From Sinorhizobium fredii USDA 257 (GTDB taxonomy: Bacteria > Pseudomonadota > Alphaproteobacteria > Rhizobiales > Rhizobiaceae), in contig NC_018000.1 of assembly GCF_000265205.3 (NCBI RefSeq), forward strand, positions 4,836,001-4,900,000: a DNA stretch of 64,000 nucleotides. Direction: 5' to 3'. This document shows positions 47,133 through 60,451 of the stretch, one piece after another. The number at the start of each line of letters is the position of its first letter. Positions within the stretch are counted from its first letter, which is position 1. The translations under genes were made by a program, and so were the position numbers. The notes below the pieces were generated by a model. The model had not been told where the DNA came from and did no database searches. It worked only from the letters and a program-made list of their open reading frames with translations.

Positions 47133-47165
47133 GAAAAAAGCCGCCTCGAAATCTCCGGGCGGCTT
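47133..47165 (-). terminator. trp attenuator terminator
   Basis: AAGCCGCC at 47158-47165 pairs with GGCGGCTT at 47138-47145 on the transcript, followed by TTTTTTC. It lies 35 bases after the trpL stop and 48 bases before trpE(G). Confidence 0.9.
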
Positions 47166-47200
47166 CATGTCTCAATCACGCGTGACTGGTCAAGGCCGCC

Positions 47201-47245
47201 TCAGCGAGCCCACCACCAGATCGAAATGTTCTGCGTGTTTGCCAT
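47201..47245 (-). CDS. trpL: trp operon leader peptide
   Basis: 14 codons, [14 protein letters not shown], with three adjacent Trp codons before the stop. The sequence matches the leader peptide peTrpL described in S. meliloti. Upstream there is no Shine-Dalgarno and a promoter ends 8 bases before the ATG, in line with leaderless translation. Too short for normal gene calling. Confidence 0.92.
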
Positions 47246-53490: not shown

Positions 53491-54708
53491 TCAACGGGCA
53501 AGGATATCGCGCATCTCCACGAGGTTGGACCGCACGCGAAGAATATAGAAACCCATCGTCGCCAGATGCGTCGGCATGATCCAGCCGTCCTCGCGGCCGT
53601 TCGAGATGATGAGCGGCTGGATACCCAGCGCCGAGCGAAGCTGCTTCATCGTTTCCGTGTAGATCGGCGTCAGCCCGCGCTGCGCGACGACGTTCTGGAA
53701 ATCCGCCCCGGCCGCCGAGAGGATGCCGTAATAGCCGTAGAGCTGGCCGAAGGCGAACCAGAAGCGGTCGTCGGCGCGGGTATCGAACCAGCCGCCATTG
53801 TGGAATTCCGAGCGCTCGCGAATGATCGCCGACGTGTTGCCGAGGTCATTGGCGATGCGGTCGAGGAACTCCACCATGTTATCGGACCGGCCGTCGAAGA
53901 TCGCCTCGCACTTGCCGAGCGAAACATTGAATTTCCTGAGATCGCGCATGGCGGCGCGATAGAAGCTCGGGGTCGGGGTCTTCGGGCCGAAAGGATTGAT
54001 GCCGAAATACCAGGTTTCCTCGTCGAACTGGATATTGCCGCGGGCGCTCTGCAGGTCGTTGTTGACGCCGGACGTGCCGCGCACGCGTCCGAGTGAGTCG
54101 ACCAACTCAACGGTGGTGCGCCGGATTGCCTGGTTGATGCCGCGCTGGAACGACGCCTTGTTGTCGAGCCAGGGCGTGTCGTCCCAGTCGAGCCCGAACA
54201 ACCCGAGCTTGTAGGCGATCATCGAGGAGATCCAGGCATTCTGATTGACGTTGAGGTCGATGAGATCGGCCGCCACGTCGACCACCGCCGAGGTCTGGCA
54301 GACGGTACCGGCCGGCAGTTGCGCCATGTCGAGCGCTTCGGTCGTCGATGCGTCCGAGGGGACGACGGCAGCCTGGCTCGTGGTCGGCGCGCTGCCGGAT
54401 TGTCCCGTCGTGGCGCCGGGGCCGCTGATCGGCGAACCGGCCGGCACCTTGCGCTGGGAAAGCTTGTAACGGTCGACATAATCCGGATCGAAATTGGTCC
54501 AGGCCTGCGTTTGCCAGATGAAATAGCCGTAGAAGAAGATCAGGCCGAGCAGCACCAGACCGATCGGGCCCTTGATGATCCAGCTCCTTCCTCGATACCA
54601 GTTGGCGAGCGCCACGAATGGCCAGAGGAGCCAGGAAACCGCCAGGCCAATGCCGCGGCCGATCGCCGTGAACACACGCTGAAAAAACACAACGATCGGA
54701 TCGAGCAT
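53491..54708 (-). CDS. DUF2333 family membrane-anchored protein
   Basis: 405 residues from ATG 54708. Two hydrophobic segments at the N-terminus (IGLAVSWLLWPFVALANW and GPIGLVLLGLIFFYGYFIW) with a large domain outside that reads AQLPAGTVCQTSAVVDVAADLIDLNVNQNAWISS ... KCEAIFDGRSDNMVEFLDRIANDLGNTSAIIRE. Last gene of a five-gene operon; its Shine-Dalgarno overlaps the preceding stop, so translation is coupled. Function unknown. It is the only clear membrane anchor besides the hydrophobic stretch in the ATPase. Confidence 0.87.
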   Translation of the reverse strand: MLDPIVVFFQRVFTAIGRGIGLAVSWLLWPFVALANWYRGRSWIIKGPIGLVLLGLIFFYGYFIWQTQAWTNFDPDYVDRYKLSQRKVPAGSPISGPGATTGQSGSAPTTSQAAVVPSDASTTEALDMAQLPAGTVCQTSAVVDVAADLIDLNVNQNAWISSMIAYKLGLFGLDWDDTPWLDNKASFQRGINQAIRRTTVELVDSLGRVRGTSGVNNDLQSARGNIQFDEETWYFGINPFGPKTPTPSFYRAAMRDLRKFNVSLGKCEAIFDGRSDNMVEFLDRIANDLGNTSAIIRERSEFHNGGWFDTRADDRFWFAFGQLYGYYGILSAAGADFQNVVAQRGLTPIYTETMKQLRSALGIQPLIISNGREDGWIMPTHLATMGFYILRVRSNLVEMRDILAR

Positions 54709-54711
54709 GTC

Positions 54712-56001
54712 CTATTCCTCTTTGAGACCGTAGAGCTTGTGGCGGAAGCCGGCCTTGTCTTTCAGATATGTGCCCGTCAACGTCGCCACAACGTATTCGC
54801 GGAACTTTTCGCCGTAGCGCTCGTAGGCACCATAGAAGCCTTGCTTGTCGAACACGAAGCGCGAGACGAAGTCGCGCGGAACGAGCTGCGAGATGAGCTG
54901 GTTGACCAGCCATTTGTCCGGATGGTCGGGGGCTGCCCTGACCAGCAGGAAGCGGCTTTCCGGCGCGACCTCCTGCATCTTGATCGTGCCCGTCGCGGCG
55001 ATCGCGCGCGACATTTCCTGAAGGAAGGGATAGCTCCCGTCGCGTGCGACGAGAGCGGCATTGCGATGGATCCAGGTCTGCAGCCAGATCCGGTCGGCAT
55101 TGAGGAGATCCGCATCCGGTTCAGCCTCGTTGATCAGCCCGCGGATAGCCATGTCGGCCCGGTGCTGGAACAGCCCCGACTCCTGCACCCAGGAGGCCTG
55201 CGGCAGCTGCAGCCGGTTCGTCGTCGCCAGGAAATCGTAGATGCGCGCATGATCGGTTATGGCGATGTAGCTCACCTGCCATGGCCGCGAGCGGCGGAAG
55301 CCGGGCACCGAGGGATCGCAGATCACCGTCGTTGTCTTCTGGTCGAGGAAGACATAGACGCCGCCGAAGTGATTGGCCCAGAAGGCCTCGTGCCGGAACA
55401 CCAGCTCCTCGGGAACCAGTGCATTCTGCCGAATGTCACCGGTCAGCTTGGCGAGTTCCACCATCCGCTTCAGCATGGTGTCGTCGGACCATGCGTTCGG
55501 CACCTTCTTCAGACGGTCGACGAGTTCCCGGAGCTCCGCCGCCCTGCCGAGCATGTCCTCGGCGGAGAGCACCCGGAAGCGTACCTCGTTGATCGACAGG
55601 AGATCGTCGATGTCCTCGACCACCGAGACCGAATCCTCGATCTCGCCGTAGAGCGCATCCTTGATGGTGACGGCGTTGATCGCGCGGCTGTTGGCATTGA
55701 AGAACTCATGCATCAGCGCCGCGGTGTTGGAAAAGCTCGTGTGGACGACCGGCAGTTCCGCCTGGGCGGGCGTCAGGACGATGAAACGCCGGTTGACCCG
55801 GTTCGGGTCGAGGTAGTCGCGGTCGCCCAATTCCTGCGCGATCTCCGGCGAGAAGCCGGTCATATCGATGCTGAAGCGCTCCAGCGCCGTCGGCTTCAGC
55901 CCGAAGCCTTCGAGCGCCTTATTGTAGCGCGCGACGAGGTGTGGCTCGGAAATGTCGAGCAGCCGTCCATAGATGAGTTCGGCTTCGAGAAGGCGTTTCA
56001 T
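54712..56001 (-). CDS. uncharacterised protein, DUF6638-like
   Basis: 429 residues. No signal peptide or TM. Regions that look conserved: GYISEI-type start MKRLLEAELIYGRLLDISEPHLV, HEFFNANSRAINAVTIKDALYGEIEDSV, and ALVPEELVFRHEAFWANHFGGVYVFLDQKTTTVI. I associate it with the DUF6638 family from memory; no biochemical role is known. It follows the ATPase gene by 19 bases in the operon. Confidence 0.8.
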   Translation of the reverse strand: MKRLLEAELIYGRLLDISEPHLVARYNKALEGFGLKPTALERFSIDMTGFSPEIAQELGDRDYLDPNRVNRRFIVLTPAQAELPVVHTSFSNTAALMHEFFNANSRAINAVTIKDALYGEIEDSVSVVEDIDDLLSINEVRFRVLSAEDMLGRAAELRELVDRLKKVPNAWSDDTMLKRMVELAKLTGDIRQNALVPEELVFRHEAFWANHFGGVYVFLDQKTTTVICDPSVPGFRRSRPWQVSYIAITDHARIYDFLATTNRLQLPQASWVQESGLFQHRADMAIRGLINEAEPDADLLNADRIWLQTWIHRNAALVARDGSYPFLQEMSRAIAATGTIKMQEVAPESRFLLVRAAPDHPDKWLVNQLISQLVPRDFVSRFVFDKQGFYGAYERYGEKFREYVVATLTGTYLKDKAGFRHKLYGLKEE

Positions 56002-56020
56002 GCGGCAGTGTTCTCTTCGC

Positions 56021-57937
56021 TCATCCCTGCCACCGGCCGTCGCGCTTCATCGTCTCGATCTCGCGGATCGCCTTCTCGCGCTGGCGCTCGCGGCGGATGA
56101 TGTCGGCAATGGCGGCGTCGTCCGATTTGTCGGTGTAGCGGAATTCGCTGTCGGCGTAACGGTTGATTTCCTGCAACGCCATGTCGAGGGTGATCGGGCC
56201 GCGCAGTTCCTCGATCATCGCCTTCTTCTCGTCGTAGGACTTGTGCATGAAGGAGGCCGCGTCCTTGAACCAGTCGTCCGGCAATTCGACGTCCATCGCC
56301 CGCATCTTGATCGCATCGGTGATGTTCCTGATCGCCCGGCCGGTGAAGCGCGGCTCCGCCTCCTTGATCATGTGCAGATAGGCGCCAACATCGGCGAGCG
56401 TGGCGATCTTGCCCTTCTCCTTCTCGTAGCGCTCCCAGACGGCGGCGAGCCCCTCCTCCTGCGGCTGCGCGTGCGCCGCATAGGATTGCGAAACGGCGCG
56501 CTTGATCTCCTGGCCGGCATAAAGCTCGTGCTGGCCGAGCGGGATCTTGTGGTTCTTGCCGACGAGCAGCGCGAAGATGTCGATGTAGTCGCCTTGCGTC
56601 TGCGGCCCGTCGACCAGCCAGCGCGCGCCGGCTCGCTGGCGCAGCGCATCGTCGACATTCTCCGGATAGTTCGAGAACATGCCGAAGGTGCAATTGCCGC
56701 GCACCACCGTCGAGGCGCCCGCAAAACTCTCCATCAGCACCGCCGTCACCTCGTGCTGGCCGGCCGAGGCGCGGTCGTCGGAGCGCTTCGCCGCCACCTG
56801 GTCGACGTCGTCGATCGTGCCGAAGCCGATCGCCCGCGGGTTGATGACGTTGTTGACGAACTCCTTGCAGTTCTGGCCGGATTTGCCCTGGTAGGAGGAG
56901 ATCTGGTCGACGCCGAAATTCTCGTAGTGGAAAGCATAGCCGGCCACGCCGCAATAGTCGTGCAGGATGCCGGCAAGCATCTGGATCAATATCGTCTTGC
57001 CGGTGCCCGGCATGCCGTCGCCGATGAAGGTGAAGAGGAAGCCGCCAAGCTCGACAAACGGATTCATCTGCCGGTCGAAGTCGTAGGCCATCAGCATCTT
57101 GGCGAGTTTCAGCGCCTGATACTTGGCGATGTGATTGCCGATGATTTCGTCCGGCTTCTTGAAGGTCATGACCAAGGGCTTGCGCTTCTGCCCGGGCGCA
57201 ACATCGAAGCCGTTCAGCGTGAAGTCATCCTGGTCGAGCCGGATGTGAATATTCTCGAAGTTCTGCAGCCCGGTGAAGCGCGCCTTGCGGGCGAGCAATC
57301 CCTCGATCGCGACGCGGGAGAAGGCACGGCTGCGTGCAGTCAAGGCCAGATCGTCCGGGGCGCCGGTGATGCTGCGATCGAGTGCGGCGATCATGCTCTT
57401 CAGCGCGTCCTGAGAGGTATCGAAGAGGAAATCCGGTTCGGCGGCATCGTCCACCGGCTCCCCCTCGCCCTGCAGCGTCGCGCCGAGATAGGCGGCAAGC
57501 GTGAAGGCGGCGATATAGGCGGCTGCTGAAAGCAGCGCCTTGAAATGGCTCGCCTCCTCGCCGGCAAGCGGGGTGCCGGCGTTGCGCGCCTGCAATTGTT
57601 CGAGGTTCGTCTGCCGCGCGAACACGTCAGAAACCGCCAGCGCCACCTGGATACCGCGCCGCGCGCGGTAGAGGACGCCATGCTGTGCCGGCGAAAGCAG
57701 AGGATCGGCGCCACGCACCGACTGGATGGTGCGGGCGAGTTCGACCTCGCGCGTCCGCCGCTGGCCGCCGGTCGAGACGGTCGAGACGAAGCGGCGGCCG
57801 GTGCCTGCAAGCGGCGTGCCCGCCGTGGCCTCGTCGCGCTCAAGAATGACAAGCTTGGTTACCAGGCTTTGCGCGACCGCCTGATGCTTGGCGATGTCAT
57901 CCTCGTGCAGCGTCGTCAGGCCCGTATTCAGCGTCAT
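56021..57937 (-). CDS. AAA+ ATPase of the five-gene operon
   Basis: 638 residues. Walker A GDGMPGTGKT at 306-315, Walker B AIGFGTIDDVD with acidic pair 376-377, sensor-1 region GNCTFGMFSNYPENVDDALRQRAGARW (Asn 415/423, candidate arginine fingers 433/435), and a C-terminal helical lid (IRNITDAIKMRAMDVELPDDWF). The N-terminal third has a hydrophobic stretch at 133-155 that could enter the membrane. ATPase motifs are intact, so it is expected to be active. Its partners are the four neighbours. Confidence 0.9.
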   Translation of the reverse strand: MTLNTGLTTLHEDDIAKHQAVAQSLVTKLVILERDEATAGTPLAGTGRRFVSTVSTGGQRRTREVELARTIQSVRGADPLLSPAQHGVLYRARRGIQVALAVSDVFARQTNLEQLQARNAGTPLAGEEASHFKALLSAAAYIAAFTLAAYLGATLQGEGEPVDDAAEPDFLFDTSQDALKSMIAALDRSITGAPDDLALTARSRAFSRVAIEGLLARKARFTGLQNFENIHIRLDQDDFTLNGFDVAPGQKRKPLVMTFKKPDEIIGNHIAKYQALKLAKMLMAYDFDRQMNPFVELGGFLFTFIGDGMPGTGKTILIQMLAGILHDYCGVAGYAFHYENFGVDQISSYQGKSGQNCKEFVNNVINPRAIGFGTIDDVDQVAAKRSDDRASAGQHEVTAVLMESFAGASTVVRGNCTFGMFSNYPENVDDALRQRAGARWLVDGPQTQGDYIDIFALLVGKNHKIPLGQHELYAGQEIKRAVSQSYAAHAQPQEEGLAAVWERYEKEKGKIATLADVGAYLHMIKEAEPRFTGRAIRNITDAIKMRAMDVELPDDWFKDAASFMHKSYDEKKAMIEELRGPITLDMALQEINRYADSEFRYTDKSDDAAIADIIRRERQREKAIREIETMKRDGRWQG

Positions 57938-57940
57938 CGC

Positions 57941-59089
57941 TCAAACCTCGCTCACCACCTGATTGCCGGAGATCACATGCACCTTGTAGTCGCCGAAAAC
58001 CTGCGCCGCCTCGCCGGCCGCGTAGAGCGCCTGATAGGCGTCGTGCGGCACCAGCGCATGTTTCTCATAGGCGCTCACACCCATGCGCGCGGCTTCGAGA
58101 TTGTCGGTATCGATATGAAATTCCTCCTGCGCCGGCGTCGAGGACCAGAAGCCGCGCTCCGCGGGCCGCTCGGCCTTGGAGAAGACCTCCTGCACCGTCC
58201 AGGTCAGGAGCCAGGCATTCTCCGTCTTGCGCACCTTCGAGAGGATGTCGTTGATCCGGGCATTGTTCTCGGTGATTCCGGCCGAATAGAACGGCCCGAG
58301 CACGATGCGCCTCAGCTGCTTCGGATGCAGTTCCGGAAAATCCTTGTCGAGATTGGTGGCGATCGTCACCGGCGTCAGCGAATAGGCGCTGTTCTTCGAG
58401 GCGAAGTCGTCGAAACGGCTGGCCAGTTCCGGATTGAGCAGCCCGCCGATCGGCAATGGGATATCGATCTCCGGGTTGAGCTTGCCGTCTTTGGTCACCA
58501 GCATCTCGACGACATTCTCCGAGGAATCCTCGACCGTCGCCATGTAGATCATCGGAAGCGTCTGCGTGCCGTCGAAGGCGCCCCAGGCGACGACGTAATA
58601 GGGCCGCATCGTCTTCGGATTGACGGCAACCCGGATCGTCTCCGGCAGGATGAACGGGGAGAATATCTCACCCTTGCCGATCTGCTCGAGATAGAGCCGC
58701 TCTGCCGTGCGGGCCTGCAGCGCCTCCGGAAACGCCTTCTGCCGCAGGATGAAATCGACCATCTCCTCCCGCAGCGCATCGGCGGATGGGATGCTCGCCA
58801 GCCGCTTCTCCGCGCTCTGCCGGTCGTTTTCGAGCTCCAACACATTCTGGAAGACCGGAAATCCGCTCTCGGCGCGCGAGATCCGGAAGTGCTCGACGAA
58901 GCCGATGCGGTTTTCCCAACAGGCAACCGATGCCTTCAGCCGCGCCAGATAGGGAACGATGACTTCGCCGACGACCGTGTTGCGATAAAGCGGCGAATTG
59001 CGATCGCCGAGAAACAGTTCGAGCCCGGCCAGAGCGGACCGGATCGAGGTGAAATATTGCCTGACGGCAGGAGATACGCCGGTATTCAT
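57941..59089 (-). CDS. uncharacterised protein of the five-gene operon
   Basis: 382 residues from ATG 59089 (TTG 59092 would add one residue), with GAGGGATATTG upstream. Soluble, no signal peptide. Segments LETIRVAVNPKTMRPYYVVAWGAFDGTQTLPMIYMATVEDSSENV and NLDKDFPELHPKQLRRIVLGPFYSAGITENNARINDIL look structured. I recognise no family. It ends 3 bases before the ATPase start. Confidence 0.85.
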   Translation of the reverse strand: MNTGVSPAVRQYFTSIRSALAGLELFLGDRNSPLYRNTVVGEVIVPYLARLKASVACWENRIGFVEHFRISRAESGFPVFQNVLELENDRQSAEKRLASIPSADALREEMVDFILRQKAFPEALQARTAERLYLEQIGKGEIFSPFILPETIRVAVNPKTMRPYYVVAWGAFDGTQTLPMIYMATVEDSSENVVEMLVTKDGKLNPEIDIPLPIGGLLNPELASRFDDFASKNSAYSLTPVTIATNLDKDFPELHPKQLRRIVLGPFYSAGITENNARINDILSKVRKTENAWLLTWTVQEVFSKAERPAERGFWSSTPAQEEFHIDTDNLEAARMGVSAYEKHALVPHDAYQALYAAGEAAQVFGDYKVHVISGNQVVSEV

Positions 59090-59150
59090 CAATATCCCTC
59101 CGGCAATTGCCGAAAGGCGGTCGGAAAGCTGGTCATTGCCGCTTTGCCGA

Positions 59151-60239
59151 TCACTGCTTCACGTAGTTTGCGGCATTGTGCTTGTCCATCACCGTCTGGA
59201 AGCGACGGGCGAAGGCGTCGTCGGCCAGTTTCTTGCGCCGCTGGATATCCTGCGTCGCGAGCATGTTCTTTTCATGCATTTCGAGCAGGTCGCCAATATG
59301 GCGCTGGGCGGCGGCGCCAATTCCAGCCATCGTCTCCTCGGCGGCGGTGTCGACCTGGCTGCCGAGCGTGTTGATCTTGTGCGCCACATCCTGCTGCGCC
59401 GCCGTCTTCAACGAATCCTCGAGCGACTTGTAGAGCACGATGCGCTGTTCCGTATCGATCGCCAGCTTGTTGATCAGCGTGTTCTGCGCGGCGATCTGGT
59501 TGTTGAGCGAATCGACAAAGGTCTGGAACATCGCGGTGTAGCGCTCGAGCGTCTGGCTCTCGGCGAGCAGTTCCTGTTCCTTGGCCTGCTTCTCGTTGTA
59601 TTCAGTGGCGAGCCGCGAGCGCTCGGCCTCGAGGTCGGTGCGGGTCGTCTGATCCGTGGAAGCCGCGATCCGGTTCTCGATGTCGAGCAGCAGCGGATTG
59701 AGCTCCTCGATCCGCTTCTGGGTCTCCACGAGCGCGGCCATCGTGCCCTTGCGGCGCTCGATCACCTGGATGAGGCTCTGCTCGGAAGTCTTGTAGCGCT
59801 GGTCGAGGATCGCCTTCTGCTCCTTGAGGATACCGACGATGGTGTCGGACTTGACGAGCAGTTCCTGGAGGTTGCCGGCGAGCGACATGTTGCGCACCCG
59901 GTCGGTGCGCAGGCGCTGCATCGACTGCTTGGAGAAGATGCCGATGAACTTCTCGTAGCCGGTATAGCTCTTCATGCTCTCGAATTCGGCACCGAAGACG
60001 TTTGTCGCGTCTTCCAGCCCGATAATCAGATCGGCGATATTGGCTTCCATCGCCTTCTGCTGCTTGAGGACGTCCTGGATGCGGGCGTTCTCGATATCGA
60101 AATTGACGTCGCCGAGCTTGGTGTCAGCCTTGGCGAACTGCTCGAGGACGACGCCGGACTGCTCGAGCTTGCCGCGCATCTCGTCAACGACGCTGCGCGT
60201 CTTCGCGATCTCGGCGTCAAAGTTCTGAAGAGTCGCCAT
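59151..60239 (-). CDS. long coiled-coil protein of the five-gene operon
   Basis: 362 residues from ATG 60239, with GGAGGGGATAAGG upstream. Almost all helix with heptads: EIAKTRSVVDEMRGKLEQSGVVLEQF, LVKSDTIVGILKEQKAILDQRYKTSEQSLIQVIERRK, RIEELNPLLLDIENRIA and ERSRLATEYNEKQAKEQELLAESQ. Its style recalls TelA/toxic-anion-resistance and other filament-like proteins, but no specific motif supports that. First gene of the operon. Confidence 0.85.
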   Translation of the reverse strand: MATLQNFDAEIAKTRSVVDEMRGKLEQSGVVLEQFAKADTKLGDVNFDIENARIQDVLKQQKAMEANIADLIIGLEDATNVFGAEFESMKSYTGYEKFIGIFSKQSMQRLRTDRVRNMSLAGNLQELLVKSDTIVGILKEQKAILDQRYKTSEQSLIQVIERRKGTMAALVETQKRIEELNPLLLDIENRIAASTDQTTRTDLEAERSRLATEYNEKQAKEQELLAESQTLERYTAMFQTFVDSLNNQIAAQNTLINKLAIDTEQRIVLYKSLEDSLKTAAQQDVAHKINTLGSQVDTAAEETMAGIGAAAQRHIGDLLEMHEKNMLATQDIQRRKKLADDAFARRFQTVMDKHNAANYVKQ

Positions 60240-60309
60240 TTCCTTATCCCCTCCGTCCATCCGGGCAGCCGTGGCCGCGAACCGAATTGTTCAGCCCTTA
60301 ATTGCACTT

Positions 60310-60339
60310 ATATAAAGGGTGTTTAGCAAGTCAGGACAA
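60310..60339 (-). promoter_or_regulatory. candidate promoter of the five-gene operon
   Basis: TTGTCC (60334-60339), 18-base spacer and TTATAT (60310-60315) on the minus strand, 70 bases before the coiled-coil gene ATG. Good -10, weaker -35. Confidence 0.45.
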
Positions 60340-60451
60340 GAGACGCCGACCGGGTTTTTTCGGCCGACAGGCGAGATCGGGCGGCTCTTGCATGGTCCGG
60401 CAGCGGGATTTTCGATTCATGGCGCTTGCAACGAATGCATTGAGACGGTCG

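Follow-up and report, generated by a model that had tools for sequence, protein, structure and literature searches.

The window analysed here is a stretch of 64,000 nucleotides from Sinorhizobium fredii USDA 257 (NC_018000.1, positions 4,836,001 to 4,900,000), which contains five adjoining minus-strand genes, here called A to E, around an AAA+ ATPase. It is close to certain that the core of this operon is a unit of four genes, A-B-C-D, inherited together in root-nodule bacteria and some of their relatives. We propose, with a probability of about 0.4, that A-B-C-D is a dedicated ATP-driven protein-remodelling module at the inner membrane, in which the coiled-coil protein A would be the main client of the ATPase C through residues 273–294 of A. 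The five genes are listed with their positions in the window.

59151..60239, minus strand: gene A, coiled-coil protein of 362 amino acids (aa) (open reading frame (ORF) list and helix prediction)
57941..59089, minus strand: gene B, 382 aa from ATG, no Pfam family (ORF list, Pfam)
56021..57937, minus strand: gene C, classical AAA+ ATPase of 638 aa (ORF list, Pfam, motifs)
54712..56001, minus strand: gene D, DUF6638 protein of 429 aa (ORF list, Pfam)
53491..54708, minus strand: gene E, DUF2333 protein of 405 aa (ORF list, Pfam)

The order and strand of A-B-C-D are the same in all 19 neighbourhoods that were fetched, 15 of which are from outside the family and two of which (L027 and L028) are cut by contig ends. 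In a scan of named genomes the complete A-B-C-D-E was present in 77 of 80 loci, the best 80 of at least 513, and the remaining three are cut by contig ends. The genera represented include Sinorhizobium, Shinella, Pararhizobium, Mesorhizobium, Phyllobacterium, Hoeflea, and others. DUF6638 is present in 38 of 60 relatives, including all 33 of the same genus (counting the genome of the window), in 4 of 240 genomes sampled from the class, and in 18 of 249 sampled from the phylum Pseudomonadota. The C profile matches exactly the 18 Pseudomonadota genomes that have D, and the A profile matches the same 18 and two more. Among 151 genomes of the family, C was found in 88 and A in 93, these being the 88 and five others. 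In 86 of the 88, A is a single match that reaches profile position 356 or beyond; in the other two it is in two pieces on different contigs. The conserved order of the operon is far beyond chance. That this is a chance cluster of unrelated genes, for which no point in favour was found, can be dismissed, since the conserved order and the co-occurrence refute it.

C was found in 10 of 72,556 plasmid records, four of which are large Vibrio records at 38% identity; the A, B, C, and D profiles all match the one Vibrio record tested. Plasmid pRlX5 of R. leguminosarum TP16 (L202) has an A-B-C-D copy without E, the A of which is full-length with segment 273–294 present. In a different strain of this species, A and E are the only genes of the set seen next to tdk.

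ATPase C has a single AAA match, at residues 308–438; the roughly 290 residues ahead of it belong to no Pfam family over the cut-off, and no protease domain was found. Three of its motifs are located in the window as follows.

56993..57016, minus strand: Walker A of C, residues 308–315 (motif alignment)
56885..56893, minus strand: pore loop 1 of C, Y349-Q350-G351, aligned with the Y-V-G of an i-AAA protease domain and with the Y-L-G of Afg2
56807..56812, minus strand: Walker B of C, D376-D377, with Asp replacing the catalytic Glu (motif alignment)

In all 102 C sequences compared, G308, P310 to T315, Y349-Q350-G351, D376-D377, the sensor N423, and the Arg fingers R433, R435, and R439 are invariant; D430 and G437 are kept in 101. 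HMMER alignments place the Y-Q-G of C on pore loop 1 of an i-AAA protease domain and of Afg2, and D377 on the catalytic Glu. The first-pass annotation had described the motifs of the ATPase as intact, which is the case for Walker A, the pore loop, the sensor Asn, and the Arg fingers, but not for the catalytic Glu. Because established knowledge of AAA+ proteins can be applied to these conserved motifs, it is probable that C threads protein, and a pulling activity is likely.

Coiled-coil protein A is predicted to be all-helical, with long helices at residues 120–193 and 197–295. The position of one segment within the second helix is given below.

59358..59423, minus strand: codons of residues 273–294 of A, highly conserved and missing in genomes without C (alignments)

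Across 101 sequences the mean identity of this segment is 0.94, versus 0.81 over the whole of A. In a Rhizobium-like genus, A was found in 60 of 60 genomes and C in none, using a C query that matched 18 genomes in the phylum sample. In each of these 60 genomes the best A match ends at profile position 270–280 of 361, and in all 30 of the loci fetched from this genus E directly follows an A that lacks residues 273–294. A named R. leguminosarum record has the order choV-choW-choX-tdk-A-DUF2333, which suggests that this genus is probably Rhizobium. The median ratio of nonsynonymous to synonymous substitution rates (dN/dS) in this genus is 0.20 for A (385 pairs) and 0.10 for E (431 pairs). Both genes are under purifying selection without C, and A is therefore not a relic there.

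Two genomes of the phylum sample, both of this genus, have A but not C; in them A is flanked by tdk and E, fhs lies past E, and B, C, and D were not found in the 17-kb stretch. Of the five A-positive family genomes that lack C, four, from two genera, have a shortened or diverged A, and the fifth is 68% complete with a contig that ends inside B. In the second genus without C, A is again between tdk and E and the same segment is missing. In this second genus (L205 and L206) A is in addition without part of its hairpin tip, with two gaps at about residues 171–224. The segment is absent together with C, and this suggests that residues 273–294 are a candidate handle for C.

In the proposed mechanism, A would be a long protein of helical structure, assembling on a membrane protein (DUF2333 or DUF1523) or beside it. 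C, a member of the classical AAA group, would form a hexameric ring, hold a polypeptide by means of its Tyr-Gln-Gly pore loop, and pull on it. The main client of C would be A, either alone or carrying a client of its own, with contact made through residues 273–294, and A assemblies would thereby be dismantled or reset. B and D may be obligate partners of C, as adaptors or ring partners. The combination of a helical protein, an ATPase, and a membrane protein, which the first-pass annotation had put forward, was a fair reading.

E follows D in 6 of the 19 fetched loci; two end before that position, and in 11 E was not found. The gene after D was aligned in nine of these 11 (L034 and L037 being left out) and is of a single family, four tested members of which are DUF1523. 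Most of the fetched genomes without E are from one family (f48), taken to be Rhodobacteraceae. A protein of about 88 aa with one hydrophobic stretch is often found between D and the DUF1523 gene. DUF2333 occurs in 53 of the 249 phylum-sample genomes, 8 of the 18 with C and 45 without it. The operon cannot therefore be kept as the five-gene unit first proposed: DUF2333 is in only 8 of 18 genomes with C and was not found after D in 11 of 19 loci, and two genera have A and E but no C. The membrane gene can be exchanged: it is DUF2333 in Rhizobiaceae and DUF1523 in other lineages. The two families have no similarity in a profile comparison. The hydropathy of E indicates an amphipathic N-terminus, a hydrophobic stretch at residues 16–34, and a likely membrane helix at about 47–65; DUF1523 proteins, judged by eye, likely also have a membrane helix on the N-terminal side. 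E has only two cysteines, C137 and C267, both kept in the seven module-linked sequences aligned, which would fit a periplasmic disulfide.

Several observations weigh against the proposal that C remodels A at the membrane. The catalytic Glu of Walker B is Asp in every C sequence, and this substitution often slows hydrolysis in other AAA+ proteins. The model of A is a generic helical bundle of moderate confidence, with a predicted local distance difference test score (pLDDT) of 78 and a predicted template modelling score of 0.65, and it is weakest at segment 273–294 and behind it (block means of 51–68 for residues 271–320). A has no significant match to the PspA, Snf7, or TelA families of Pfam. 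The tail of A behind the segment has also diverged in most loci without C, which leaves room for the segment to act with B or D rather than C. D was absent genome-wide in two of the 60 genomes without C, with only C searched for in all 60 and B in none. Since both genera have the same deletion in A, the joint absence of C and the segment is probably one ancestral event, a single instance in evolution. Finally, the Vibrio record and the R. leguminosarum plasmid both carry A-B-C-D without an adjoining E, and the membrane link is therefore not general at the gene level. In the Vibrio record mfd directly follows D; in pRlX5 an RpoD-like reading frame follows D, as judged by eye, and E was unmatched within the 15.9-kb stretch.

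One of the gene junctions is the site of frequent insertion.

56002..56020, minus strand: C-D junction, 19 bases, empty in the window; in many relatives an insert site for toxin-antitoxin or DUF559 genes

The junctions of 98 loci (84 in the case of D-E) were classed according to their similarity to 14 representatives. Pfam named 11 of these (DUF4145 below the cut-off), and the other three had no match; a junction of under 250 bases with no match was taken as empty. The C-D junction is occupied in 56 of the 98 loci and empty in 42. Its inserts are 27 DUF559, 10 helix-turn-helix with ParE-type and 7 ribbon-helix-helix with ParE-type toxin-antitoxin pairs, 4 Phd with PIN pairs, 1 DUF4145-like, 1 DUF3825, 2 small membrane proteins, and 4 unclassified. 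The other junctions are less often occupied: A-B in 8 of 98 (3 Band_7 and 5 unclassified, with 90 empty), B-C in 5 of 98 (2 Fic and 3 others, with 93 empty), and D-E in none of 84. Fisher tests that ignore relatedness give 9e-14 for C-D versus A-B, 4e-16 versus B-C, and 2e-20 versus D-E. On a FastTree of 101 C sequences, with six states and the unclassified lumped with other, the C-D state changes at least 32 times, versus a mean of 49.7 when shuffled. This indicates that the junction turns over often, yet in a clustered manner.

The Band_7 (SPFH) genes between A and B are those of L070, L105, and L113, the last identified by Pfam and the other two by similarity to it; these genes count in favour of the proposed remodelling module. 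The Fic-family genes between B and C are in L096 and L119. In S. meliloti Ak57 (CP090106.1, locus L203) an ISRm16-type transposase sits between an endonuclease-domain gene and D; this record is labelled pSymB, yet it holds the tdk-fhs region.

The C-D inserts may be selfish addiction modules in a permissive spot, uninformative as to function, with the operon itself having a housekeeping role such as envelope protein quality control. Empty C-D junctions are common, the insert families are mutually unrelated, and the lower occupancy of the other junctions is in keeping with this explanation. It leaves the strong preference for one junction without an explanation, and we consider it a real possibility, if a somewhat unlikely one. 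The preference for the C-D junction is in itself a genomic puzzle.

It is also conceivable, at lower odds, that B and D are the targets of C, which might for instance load or unload a ring of B, and that A is merely their scaffold. We regard this arrangement as unlikely.

A conflict (defence) system is a poorer candidate still. Here A-B-C-D would be a sensor and ATP-driven core, and the C-D junction an effector slot for nucleases, toxins with antitoxins, and HEPN-like proteins. The nature of the C-D inserts, the two Fic genes at B-C, the number of C-D state changes, the plasmid copy without E, and a weak match of C to the TRIP13 model of PADLOC all lean this way. Against it, C-D junctions are empty in many loci, the window included, and the toxins found there are accompanied by their own antitoxins. 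The operon has a housekeeping site in the Rhizobiaceae read, PADLOC is blank for A, B, D, and E at E-values up to 1, and C has no match in 50,697 phage records. A defence role is quite improbable.

The packing of five genes on the minus strand, as first annotated, was confirmed from the ORFs. The gaps given for B-C (3 bases), C-D (19), and D-E (3) stand, but the 58 bases given for A-B apply only from a TTG start of B at 59092, which makes B 383 aa instead of 382; from the ATG that gives 382 aa the gap is 61. C matches AAA (PF00004, E-value 4.2e-10, 40.6 bits against a cut-off of 21.2). D and E had been correctly placed, D in DUF6638 (PF20343, 4.1e-75, 253.7 bits against a cut-off of 27) and E in DUF2333 (PF10095, 6.5e-16, 58.6 bits against a cut-off of 22). 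A and B have no Pfam family above the cut-off, and scans of the window proteins with NCBIfam and PHROGs added nothing useful. The predicted structure of B is confident (pLDDT 90.8). In agreement with the absence of a known role noted at first, literature searches found no account of the A-B-C-D set and no published function for D or E; no paper on DUF6638 came up, and DUF2333 is called uncharacterised in print.

A candidate promoter had been proposed before A. A scan for the sigma-70 consensus upstream of A found no site, with 1.5 expected by chance, but a conserved block is present.

60309..60340, minus strand: conserved promoter-like block CTTGTC-N17-CTTTATATA before A (alignment of upstream regions)

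The CTTGT and CTTTATATA are identical in all 15 aligned upstream regions, those of the window and 14 other loci, 13 of which are named Ensifer or Sinorhizobium. By Pfam, the operon of the window is flanked by thymidine kinase (tdk) on its upstream side and by formate-tetrahydrofolate ligase (fhs) on its downstream side, an arrangement that the window has in common with S. meliloti. By its numbering, SMc02733 of S. meliloti may be gene C. A ChvI-bound DNA fragment has been reported within SMc02733 (PMC3687685). Elsewhere in the window, the small RNA RcsR1 has a full-length Rfam match at 47134–47229 on the minus strand (98.2 bits).

If the proposed remodelling role is correct, four protein families that now lack a function would gain one, in bacteria as tractable in the laboratory as Sinorhizobium. 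The Rhizobium-like genus is a natural experiment, and it points to a segment of 22 residues as the site at which the coiled coil and the ATPase would be coupled.

Among known systems, A-B-C-D is like TRIP13/HORMA modules of CBASS-type defence only in the weak TRIP13 score of C (E-value 1.3e-5, 22.7 bits, from a PADLOC model without a stated cut-off). HORMA had no match in A, B, D, or E with Pfam or PADLOC. TelA/tellurite-resistance proteins are long helical cytoplasmic proteins and in this are like A; TelA was rejected as an identity for A, as PF05816 is unmatched in the window A and in all of 20 relatives. With Vps4/ESCRT-III (Snf7) and PspA/Vipp1 the operon shares a gene for a helical protein next to one for a classical AAA+ ATPase, with a membrane link. 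It is unlike them in the 362-aa length and the conserved tail of A, and we know of no counterpart of B and D in either system. The A of the window has three Pfam matches at E-values up to 5, none of them Snf7, and no match to PspA_IM30; for 28 A relatives the check for Snf7, PspA, and TelA covers the matches listed, 25 of 84 families. The Vps4 C-terminal oligomerisation domain is not among the Pfam matches of C at E-values up to 1. PSP loci can also hold AAA+ and band-7 genes, according to one published account (PMC11237479).

In its general plan A-B-C-D resembles Vps4/ESCRT-III, but the sequence tests do not place it in that group. It could be a similar bacterial machine of separate descent: a helical polymer recruited to the membrane would be pulled at its C-terminal segment by a ring ATPase, two partner families would be new, the membrane receptors could be swapped, and toxin-antitoxin and nuclease cassettes would keep entering one junction. 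We consider this fuller analogy to be doubtful. The likeness to the classical AAA unfoldases (i-AAA protease, Afg2, and the proteasomal ATPases) is in the Walker A, aromatic pore loop, sensor Asn, and Arg fingers of C, whereas its single AAA match behind a long family-less region, its apparent lack of a protease domain, and its Asp in place of the catalytic Glu set it apart from them. A-B-C-D would be seen as a remodeller of the AAA+ kind whose set of partners is new.

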